Below are positions 287-49,603 of a stretch of DNA of 64,000 nt, piece by piece. The stretch is from NCBI RefSeq assembly GCF_024498175.1, contig NZ_CP101823.1:868001-932000 (forward strand), given 5' to 3'. Under the pieces are notes generated by a model, which did no database searches, was not told the DNA's origin, and worked only from the letters and a program-made list of their open reading frames with translations. Each line of letters starts with the position of its first letter. The first letter of the stretch is position 1. This DNA is from Haloplanus salinarum (GTDB lineage Archaea; Halobacteriota; Halobacteria; Halobacteriales; Haloferacaceae). The translations under genes and the position numbers were made by a program.

Positions 287-943
287 ATGGGCACCGGCAT
301 TCGGGCGGAGCTGAAAGTCGACGCGGACGGCACCTGTCCCGTCGCGGACGCCGCCGCGGAGGCGGGCGAACCCACGTTCTCGGTTTCGAAAGGGACGAAT
401 CCGGGTGCGTCGGGTCACGTCACCGAGGAGTTCATGCTGAAGGACGCGGGCGATGGGGTGGTGTCCGACACCGAGACGCCGGTCGACCCCGTGTTCACCT
501 ACGGGTCGAAGACGGTGTACCGGTTCAGCCGCTCGCAGGGGCAGGGTTGTCCCTGCGAACGCGTCGAATCGTTCGACTGTCCGGTCGTCGACGTCCACAC
601 GCGGGACGGCTGGCTCTATCTGGTCTTTCACGCCGCGGATATGACCGAACTGCAGGATATCATCACGACGCTGCGGGAGGAGTACCCCGCCGTCGACATC
701 CGTCGGCTCCTCCGCTCGCGAGGCGATCCGTCCGATCACGACCTAGTGTTCGTCGACCGTGGACGCCTCACCGACCGACAGCGTGAGGTTCTCGAACGCG
801 CCCACGAGATGGGATACTTCGAGCGCCCGAAGGGGGCGAACGCGGGCGAGGTGGCTGCGGCGCTCGACATCTCCCGATCGACGTTCACCGAACACCTGAG
901 TGCCGCTCAGTCGAAACTCCTCGATGCGATCCTCGAGGAGTAA
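287..943 (+). CDS. Bat-like HTH-10 regulator with an N-terminal cysteine-containing domain
   Basis: 218-aa probable transcription factor. Residues ~160-218 (LTDRQREVLERAHEMGYF, then ALDISRSTFTEHLSAAQ) are the HTH domain of the haloarchaeal bacterio-opsin-activator (Bat/HTH_10) type, ending in the usual helix-turn-helix. Residues 1-150 form a separate sensory domain with Cys17, Cys88, Cys90 and Cys98; the last three form a C-P-C-x7-C cluster that could bind a metal or sense redox. That role is inference. The ATG at 287 gives a normal family length. The gene is divergent from another regulator at 128 and its stop abuts the palindromic element at 944. Regulon unknown. Confidence 0.8.
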   Translation: MGTGIRAELKVDADGTCPVADAAAEAGEPTFSVSKGTNPGASGHVTEEFMLKDAGDGVVSDTETPVDPVFTYGSKTVYRFSRSQGQGCPCERVESFDCPVVDVHTRDGWLYLVFHAADMTELQDIITTLREEYPAVDIRRLLRSRGDPSDHDLVFVDRGRLTDRQREVLERAHEMGYFERPKGANAGEVAAALDISRSTFTEHLSAAQSKLLDAILEE

Positions 944-1016
944 CTACTGTGACCGTTTACCGGTAGCTCGCCGGACTGTCCCGGCGAACTACCTAACGAC
1001 GTACGAGGGGTAGTCA
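944..1016. repeat. Palindromic intergenic element, copy D (decayed)
   Basis: Imperfect inverted repeat between two convergent genes. Its core arms pair TAGCTCGCCGG (964-974) with CCGGCGAACTA (981-991) around the loop ACTGTC. The outer arms are recognisable but diverged from copies A-C. The left end follows the TAA of the upstream gene directly, and the right end contains the TGA (1014-1016) of the leftward gene. The family is described in the findings. Confidence 0.6.
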
Positions 1017-6363: not shown

Positions 6364-6714
6364 TCAGTACTCTTCGTACGCCAGGTTCATCAGCCACTGC
6401 GAGAAGGCGTCGCTCCGGGGATCGACCTCCTCCTCGCCGATGAACGGCGACAGCATGTCGCCGGCCATCAGCAGGGAGAAATTCAGATCACGGGCCGTCG
6501 GCATCAGGAAGTACGTGTTGTGTCCCTGATAGACGGTCTCCTCGCGGCGGATGAGCCCCGCTTCGACCAGCGACTCGGCGATGCGACTCCCCTTCCGCGA
6601 GGAGATGTCGAGTTCCTTCCACAGTTCGCTCTGGTGGATGCCACGCGTTTCGAGGACCAGATCGAGTGCCGCCCGCTCCGCCTCCGACAGGTCGGCTTCC
6701 TCGGCGGCGCTCAT
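6364..6714 (-). CDS. Winged-helix transcriptional regulator (MarR/Lrp-type HTH)
   Basis: 116-aa DNA-binding protein. Residues ~8-70 form a winged helix: ERAALDLVLETRGIHQSELW, then LDISSRKGSRIAESLVEAGLI and the wing YQGHNTYFLMPT. The C-terminal 45 residues are helical and probably dimerise. The ATG at 6714 (MSAAEEADL) fits the domain start; an in-frame ATG at 6756 would add a stretch of poor quality. A CTTTAAAC box at 6771-6777 is well placed as its promoter and overlaps the stop codon of the upstream NRDE gene. It converges on psmA with a 40-bp gap, and its targets are unknown. Confidence 0.8.
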   Translation of the reverse strand: MSAAEEADLSEAERAALDLVLETRGIHQSELWKELDISSRKGSRIAESLVEAGLIRREETVYQGHNTYFLMPTARDLNFSLLMAGDMLSPFIGEEEVDPRSDAFSQWLMNLAYEEY

Positions 6715-6771
6715 CGGCGCACCTCCAGGTCGACGATCCGATGCATACACCCACAAACCGTTGCGGCGGGT

Positions 6772-15564: not shown

Positions 15565-15586
15565 GCGCGGGGGCGTCGGACGGGTC

Positions 15587-15669
15587 ATACGGTTTATTGT
15601 AAGTCATTACCGATGGTTCGCCCAGCGTCCGGCGAACCACCGGTACACAGTTACAATAATCCGTATCAG
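15587..15669. repeat. Palindromic intergenic element, copy A
   Basis: Near-complete inverted repeat: arms of 36 bp (15587-15622 and 15631-15666) agree at 30 positions around an 8-nt loop. Each arm has an A/T-rich outer part (ATACGG.TTATTGTAA) and a GC-rich inner part ending GGTTCGCC. The right end overlaps the TGA stop (15666-15668) of the leftward DUF4349 gene. Best-preserved copy of the family in this window. Confidence 0.85.
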
Positions 15670-22611: not shown

Positions 22612-22677
22612 GGGAGTCATCACCGGGGGTTCGCCGGGCTGTCCTGGCGACCCAGCGACATACGGGACGCGGTCTCA
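22612..22677. repeat. Palindromic intergenic element, copy E (diverged)
   Basis: Inner hairpin GGGTTCGCCGGG / CTGGCGACCC with intervening CTGTC, plus the shared AGTCATCACCGG segment on one side. It lies between the ABC ATPase start and the stop of the Rdx gene, and its end contains that gene's TGA (22675-22677). The outer arms no longer pair well. Confidence 0.5.
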
Positions 22678-24892: not shown

Positions 24893-24897
24893 GCCTC

Positions 24898-24981
24898 ACA
24901 CTGTTTATCGTAAGTCATCACCGGTGATTCGCCAGAACGGTTCGGCGAACCACCGGTACACAGTCACAATAAACCGTATCA
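24898..24981. repeat. Palindromic intergenic element, copy B
   Basis: Inverted repeat with arms ending GGTGATTCGCC (left) and GGCGAACCACC (right) around the loop AGAACGGTTC. The outer arms pair GTTTATCGTAAG with the complement of CAATAAAC. It fills the gap between two convergent genes; the right end overlaps the TGA of rnp2 (24979-24981). Confidence 0.8.
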
Positions 24982-26072: not shown

Positions 26073-27185
26073 TTAGCCGACCAGCGCCGCGAGCGCGTCG
26101 CCGAGCGCCGCCGCCGACCGCTCCACCTCGGCGATCCGGACGTACTCCCGGTCGGCGTGGGCGACGGGCCCCCGCTCGTCGGCGAGGACGCCGGGGCCGA
26201 AGACGACGGTCGGCGCGGGCGAGAAGTAGGAGGCCTCGGTGGCGGCGGTGAAGGGACGGACCGTGCCGGCGTCGCCGTCGGTGGCGCGGGCGGCCGCGTC
26301 GGCGAGGTGTCGGACGACCGGTTCGTCGGCGTCCGTCGCGAACGCTTCGAGGAAGGGCGTCGGGCGCTCGGTCAGGTCGAACGCGACGCCGACGGGGTCG
26401 GGCGTGGCGTCGTCGACGGCCCGCTCTAGGGACTCGCGGAAGCCCGCCGCGGACTCCGGCGGGACGCTCCGCCGGTCGACGGTGATCGCACAGGTCGCGG
26501 GCACCTGGTTCGTCGCCTTCCCGCCCTCGACGACCGTCGGCGTGAGCGTCGCCGGGCCGAGCGACGGGTGGGGGTCGCGGTCGGCGTCGAAGGTGCGGAC
26601 GGCCGACAGCGCCCCCTCCGCGGCGGCGACGGCGTTGACGCCGCTCTCGGGTTCGGCCGCGTGGGCGTTCGTCCCCGAGAGGGTGATCGTGCCCTCGAAC
26701 CGGCCCTTCGCGGCCGTACAGACGTCCAGCCCGGTCGGCTCGCCGACGACGTAGGCGTCGCCGGTCGAGGACTCGACGCCGGGGAGGGCCGACAGGTCGA
26801 GCGCCGCCGCGCCCGTGGAGTACACTTCCTCGTCGGGTGTGACCGCGAGGGTCAGCCGTCCCGCTTCGGGGTCGGTCCCGAGGAAGGCGTCGAGGATGGC
26901 CGCGAGCGGCCCCTTCGCGTCGCAGGCGCCGCGCCCGTGGATCACGCCGTCCTCGCGGCGGTAGTCGACGTGTGGCGACACCGTGTCGACGTGGGTGTTC
27001 AGGACGACGTGTGGCGACCCCGCTCCTCTGGTGGCGAGCGTGTTGCCCGCGTCGTCGACGTGGGGGTCGACGCCGGCCGAACCGAGCGTCTCGACGAGGA
27101 ACTCACGCATCTCCGTCACGTCCTCGTGGGACTCGATGCGGACGGCGGCATCGAGGAAGTCGACGGGGTCGAAGCCGTCGGTCAC
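26073..27185 (-). CDS. dapE: M20 metallopeptidase, probable succinyl-diaminopimelate desuccinylase
   Basis: 370-aa M20 family enzyme that removes succinate from N-succinyl-LL-diaminopimelate. Metal and catalytic residues are visible in VVLNTHVDTVSP (His, Asp), HGRGACDAKGPLAAIL (bridging Asp), AVTPDEEVYSTG (general-base Glu, metal Glu), VVGEPTGLDV and the last His near VAHADREYV. Dimerisation insert ~170-280. The start is GTG 27185, which overlaps the TGA of dapF. The pathway context strongly favours DapE over other M20 peptidases such as ArgE or LysK. Confidence 0.9.
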   Translation of the reverse strand: MTDGFDPVDFLDAAVRIESHEDVTEMREFLVETLGSAGVDPHVDDAGNTLATRGAGSPHVVLNTHVDTVSPHVDYRREDGVIHGRGACDAKGPLAAILDAFLGTDPEAGRLTLAVTPDEEVYSTGAAALDLSALPGVESSTGDAYVVGEPTGLDVCTAAKGRFEGTITLSGTNAHAAEPESGVNAVAAAEGALSAVRTFDADRDPHPSLGPATLTPTVVEGGKATNQVPATCAITVDRRSVPPESAAGFRESLERAVDDATPDPVGVAFDLTERPTPFLEAFATDADEPVVRHLADAAARATDGDAGTVRPFTAATEASYFSPAPTVVFGPGVLADERGPVAHADREYVRIAEVERSAAALGDALAALVG

Positions 27186-49453: not shown

Positions 49454-49518
49454 GCTTCGACGCTCCCGAGTGACATACCGTCCCCTCCACGGGCCCGCGG
49501 CTTCATGATTTCGCTTCT

Positions 49519-49603
49519 CGTACGGATTGTTGTAACTGTGTTCCGGTGGGTCGCCAGGACAGTCCGGCGACCTACCGGTACTGACTCACAATAAACAGTC
49601 TCA
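49519..49603. repeat. Palindromic intergenic element, copy C
   Basis: Inverted repeat with arms 49521-49555 and 49566-49601 around AGGACAGTCC, itself partly self-complementary. Inner arms GGTGGGTCGCC / GGCGACCTACC; outer arms include TACGGATTGTTG and CAATAAACAGT. The right end carries the TGA (49601-49603) of the leftward START-like gene; on the other side it lies upstream of trkA. Confidence 0.8.

Follow-up and report, generated by a model that had tools for sequence, protein, structure and literature searches.

Small near-palindromic elements flanked by duplicated triplets, mostly stop codons, in Haloplanus salinarum and other haloarchaea

A 64,000-nt stretch of the Haloplanus salinarum genome (contig NZ_CP101823.1, positions 868,001 to 932,000; hereafter the window) carries a palindromic intergenic sequence near position 15,587 with look-alikes elsewhere in the window. 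This raises the question of whether such sequences are cellular hairpins kept at gene ends or copies of an element that moves. The evidence presented here indicates that the family very probably consists of very small, non-autonomous MITE-like DNA transposons that are moved in trans and whose placement at stop codons is shaped by survival.

Copies and anatomy of the element

A preliminary description of the window had reported five dispersed copies of a palindromic element, A to E. Using a covariance model built from 40 other copies, with A, B and C left out of its building, these three were recovered as significant matches (Table 1), confirming them as palindromic, dispersed units of about 80 bp. 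Copy D is a diverged member of the family, and copy E is a possible remnant, as suggested by its core and by a TGA stop close by. The positions first assigned had the right place but took in a flanking TCA that belongs to the target duplication and lies outside the element, and the loop GGACTGTCC, given as a consensus feature, proved inconstant across copies. Copy D overlaps the final codons and the TAA stop of a plus-strand DmsR/HTH_10-like gene (287-943), so the end of this gene may consist of element sequence.

Table 1. Element copies, flanking triplets and empty sites in the window
Feature	Position	Strand	Score or basis
Copy A, element proper, 78 bp	15588..15665	+	84 bits, E 1.3e-19
Copy A, left target-site duplication TCA	15585..15587	.	
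Copy A, right target-site duplication TCA = TGA stop of minus-strand DUF4349 gene (15666-16535/16601)	15666..15668	-	
Copy B, element proper, 80 bp, occupying the gap between two convergent genes	24899..24978	+	71 bits, E 3.4e-16
Copy B, left target-site duplication TCA	24896..24898	.	
Copy B, right target-site duplication = TGA stop of Rpp14/Pop5-family gene	24979..24981	-	
Copy C, element proper, 80 bp, reverse orientation	49521..49600	-	75.6 bits, E 2.2e-17
Copy C, far-side target-site duplication, decayed to TCG	49518..49520	.	
Copy C, target-site duplication = TGA stop of polyketide-cyclase-like gene	49601..49603	-	
Copy D, diverged, boundaries approximate	936..1013	-	32 bits, E 7e-6
TGA stop of pyridoxamine-oxidase-like gene, adjoining copy D	1014..1016	-	
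Copy E, possible degenerate remnant, core only	22616..22665	+	14.5 bits, E 0.38 (not significant alone)
TGA stop of predicted gene beside copy E	22675..22677	-	
Empty site: stop TTA (= TAA) where sister genome G008 has an 80-bp element between TCG and TCA	26073..26075	-	
Empty site: TCA = TGA stop of ORF 6364-6756; sister genome G005 has TCA-80 bp-TCA	6364..6366	-	

In the whole 3.45-Mb genome, which is one contig, the covariance model gave 150 matches at no fewer than 90 distinct places. The length is exactly 80 bp in 54 of 62 copies, and an alignment of 40 diverse copies, drawn from two haloarchaeal families, spans 80 columns with no gap. The family is therefore short, non-coding, multicopy and dispersed, as MITEs are. 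Eight copies in the genome are identical, so a family first described as old and spreading is not solely old. Searches of Rfam and of phage records returned no match to the element.

The element has terminal inverted repeats: TACTGTTTATTGTAAGTC at the left end and TACGGATTATTGTAACTG at the right, the latter read inwards. It is a near-palindrome in which left and right ends are kept distinct, with an interior formed by a 13-bp stem and a loop, and with conserved non-pairs at positions 16/65 (G-G) and 18/63 (C-C). The hairpin of copy A folds 8 sd better than shuffles. Stem sequence differs between lineages yet pairing is maintained, with changes on both sides in 20 of 30 pairs and 113 doubly changed cells compared to 33 in shuffles. 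This covariation would fit a hairpin or, alternatively, a pair of half-sites for one protein.

Target duplication and empty sites

The triplets flanking the element were compared in 57 copies of this genome. TGA stands on both sides in 24 and TCA on both sides in 20; no copy mixes TGA with TCA, and in the remaining 13 one or both triplets are altered. The TAGGG-type relatives gave 36 concordant flanks, again with no mixture. Since a palindrome would give one TGA and one TCA, the concordant triplets point to a duplicated target; a pure palindrome is ruled out as the cause of the flanks, which are direct and not inverted repeats. The duplicated triplet is TSA, rarely TTA, and its fixed length of 3 bp, seen in 44 concordant copies and at empty sites, is a further property of MITEs.

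Comparison of empty sites between strains had been proposed in the preliminary description, and at two sites in the window it shows a single triplet where a sister genome holds the element (Table 1). At position 26073 the window and sister genome G008 share an identical left flank, and the size difference is 80+3 bp. As this empty site is a single triplet, not TSA-TA-TSA, an IS630-like TA duplication is ruled out. In genome G416, another element is nested in an 80-bp copy with TGA on either side, one TGA having been duplicated. The 3-bp duplication on both sides, taken with the single-triplet empty sites, points to a MITE-like non-autonomous element.

Further comparisons concern single loci. 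In sister species, the orthologous loci that were found lack copies A and B, and diverged flanks there leave no base-perfect empty sites. One copy is common to this genome and G007 at the same site, so some insertions predate the species. At one pair of convergent genes (L026 versus L073 and L075), the copy in this genome lies 4 bp from the position of the copy in the sister species G008 and G010, and the two insertions occupy the stops of different genes.

The same comparisons bear on a conserved cellular 3'-UTR hairpin, that is, a terminator or mRNA stabiliser kept for function at gene ends. The strong stem covariation and the location at gene ends, often convergent ones, would suit such a hairpin, but sister species lack A and B at the same genes, empty sites and target duplications are present, the element is found in both orientations relative to the gene, and it has no U-tract and no Rfam counterpart. 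We consider this explanation very unlikely. With copies spread through all 12 genomes of the genus, the evidence bears out the earlier preference for a dispersing element over a conserved terminator.

A second alternative, also raised earlier, is a REPIN/REP-like element moved by a Y1 (RAYT/IS200-IS605) transposase by way of single-stranded hairpins. A near-palindrome could form a single-stranded hairpin, and the conserved internal mismatches are in keeping with one. Y1 transposition, however, is not known to make a target duplication, and the 3-bp duplication found throughout, on both sides of the element, argues against an IS200/IS605-like mechanism and leaves this alternative highly improbable.

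For a MITE-like element, we envisage a trans-acting transposase that would recognise the ends TAC[GT]G.TTATTGTAA and make a 3-bp staggered cut at GNC-TSA-GNC, presumably by cut-and-insert chemistry; the element would be inserted, and gap repair would duplicate TSA.

Other arrangements were observed among the copies. At L346, L317, L256 and L269, elements of different types stand in chains with only a shared TGA or TCA between them, as if later insertions had reused an earlier duplicated triplet. At L037 (G000:C1:1204936-1205212), an A+T-rich stretch contains a pair of divergent-subfamily copies (core CGACCGC) in opposite orientations at a spacing of about 120 bp, each with its duplications intact. 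L188 (G002:C1:357301) is a 40-bp core-deleted derivative that keeps both termini and adjoins TGA, and at L258 (G404) a different small inverted-repeat element with ends TACTGTCGGACAG is nested in a relative of the family, flanked by TTA and TCA.

Placement at stop codons

At all five window sites, the triplet beside the copy is the TGA stop of a minus-strand gene; this placement and the target duplication had both been missed in the preliminary description. Based on gene calls from a simple home-made caller, 65 of the 85 copies in this genome (0.76) stand at stop codons. The first set of copies contributed 46 of 62, and among held-out copies, which were found later and not used in forming the idea, 19 of 23 abut an in-frame stop. 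Relatives show the same placement (33 of 45). Of eight cases in public plasmid records, four have an annotated CDS whose end coincides exactly with the start of element sequence; in these four Natrialbaceae plasmids, from Natrinema thermotolerans, Natrialba magadii, Halomontanus rarus and Natribaculum luteum, the abutment rests on independent annotation.

For the null expectation we took all TSA triplets that are either stops or outside coding sequence and asked what share of them are stops: 34% in the window, or 43% after weighting by target context, and 10-14% across the loci fetched. The target sequence by itself should produce part of the enrichment. In a genome of 70% G+C, a non-coding TGA or TCA would commonly be a stop codon. 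The observed share exceeds every null estimate (0.10-0.43; p=4e-10 versus 0.43). By gene context, 26 of about 61 copies are convergent and 3 of about 60 lie between divergent genes.

Placement also differs with age. Taking as youngest the copies within two substitutions of another, a cut-off picked after seeing the data, and counting all 23 later-found copies as older, 10 of the 20 youngest are at stops compared to 55 of 65 older copies (p=0.005); the rank test gives p=0.06. Only three of the eight identical copies are at stops. These figures suggest that insertions go into TSA sites generally and that those at stops persist, and that survival, not strict targeting, is behind much of the pattern; we infer that selection is the main cause of the concentration at stops. 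Insertion into TGA re-creates TGA, so the host gene is spared. With TGA becoming TGA-element-TGA, the reading frame would end as before and the event would be silent at the protein level; insertions outside stops would be lost more often, and the family would accumulate in stop codons.

Two other accounts of this placement were weighed. The mobilising enzyme might actively seek stops or gene 3' ends, guided by terminating ribosomes, 3'-end chromatin or nearby sequence. A stop share above the highest null estimate and the chains that reuse the same TGA (L346, L317) would agree with this, but the youngest and the identical copies occur at stops at about the null rate and the consensus GNC-TSA-GNC is present on the non-stop side too, which makes active targeting the less likely account. 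Domestication, in which the element serves the host by insulating the ends of convergent genes so that old copies persist at stops, appears improbable; the convergent contexts and the stems maintained by paired changes across lineages speak for it, but paired changes are equally expected for the inverted ends of a transposase. Survival of MITE-like insertions at stops remains our preferred reading.

Relatives, mobilising partner and known systems

Beyond the genus, 11 genomes from other genera of the same family have matches, and a plasmid of Haloplanus sp. GDY1 carries a copy. Relatives with other cores are found in a second haloarchaeal family, and named plasmids with matches come from Natrinema, Natrialba, Natronorubrum, Halomontanus and Natribaculum. 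Related elements of 77-109 bp with the same ends and duplication occur in several haloarchaeal families. The TAGGGATTATCGTA-ended type, also 77-109 bp and again with TSA duplications, is present in 31 of the 392 order-level genomes. This class (L302-L331, L340-L348) is very abundant in genome G076, with 54 exact ends. Tentatively, all of these could belong to a haloarchaea-wide, transposase-free superfamily (77-109 bp, ends TA[CG]KG..TTAT[TC]GTA) served by one common mobilising system, its 3-bp staggered cut matched to stops as safe landing sites where each insertion would restore the stop.

A larger element with the same ends and a transposase, which the preliminary description proposed to look for, did not appear in the genomes and transposase loci examined. 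The 12 sister genomes hold no autonomous element with the same ends, the PF01609 loci fetched from four genomes have no matching ends, and PF13359 (DDE_Tnp_4) is absent from the genus. Ends lacking the MITE core, sought in about 150 family-level and about 390 order-level genomes, revealed no autonomous element. One exact pattern gave seven matches among GTDB species genomes, none of them haloarchaeal, and in IMG/VR the end motif occurs bare, with no element core behind it. Single ends in G002, G011, G004, G329, G384, G076 and G247 were followed up as autonomous candidates and proved short, truncated or paired.

These observations expose a widespread set of haloarchaeal elements without a known mobiliser and suggest a form of near-harmless parasitism of compact genomes, in which a 3-bp duplication equal to a stop codon repairs the entered gene. 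The family offers a clean system for separating insertion preference from selection, since it allows young copies to be set against old ones and occupied sites against empty ones. Exact abutment to gene 3' ends means that the elements may also influence where transcripts end. No open-licence paper that we found describes an element that duplicates a stop codon as its target.

Elements of the IS5 family and PIF-Harbinger, with Tourist MITEs, make a 3-bp TNA target duplication and have ends GG or GAG. The present family resembles MITEs derived from IS5, IS1031 or PIF-Harbinger in its TNA-type duplication (TSA, rarely TTA) but differs in its TAC/TAG ends, and neither a DDE_Tnp_4 gene in the genus nor an end-matching PF01609 locus among those fetched accompanies it. 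In RUP/Correia-type MITEs, the duplication is TA itself, of the IS630 type. RUP, Correia/NEMIS and other bacterial MITEs with TA ends are non-coding, multicopy, shorter than 200 bp and flanked by target duplications (PMC2229807, PMC10969869). The elements described here share with them inverted ends beginning TA, high copy number, lack of coding sequence and target duplication, but in the present family the duplicated triplet is a TSA external to the TA, and its duplication restores a stop codon. Pneumococcal BOX repeats can supply a stop codon at gene 3' ends (PMC3049150); in those repeats the stop is encoded within the repeat, whereas in the present family it is supplied by the duplicated target.

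Among published systems, the small mobile repeats (SMRs) of Haloquadratum walsbyi come closest; they comprise SMR-A of about 110 bp and SMR-B, which includes the 80-bp HqIRS41 (PMC3119063). They reach up to 54 copies, have no transposon with matching ends and are mobilised in an enigmatic way; they are described as making no target duplication, and SMR-A as preferring the palindromes of IS605-type elements (PMC3119063). Both groups are haloarchaeal, 80-110 bp long, and bounded by inverted terminal repeats, and for neither has a transposon with matching ends been found. The 3-bp TSA duplication and the placement at stop codons set the present family apart, as judged from the published SMR descriptions.
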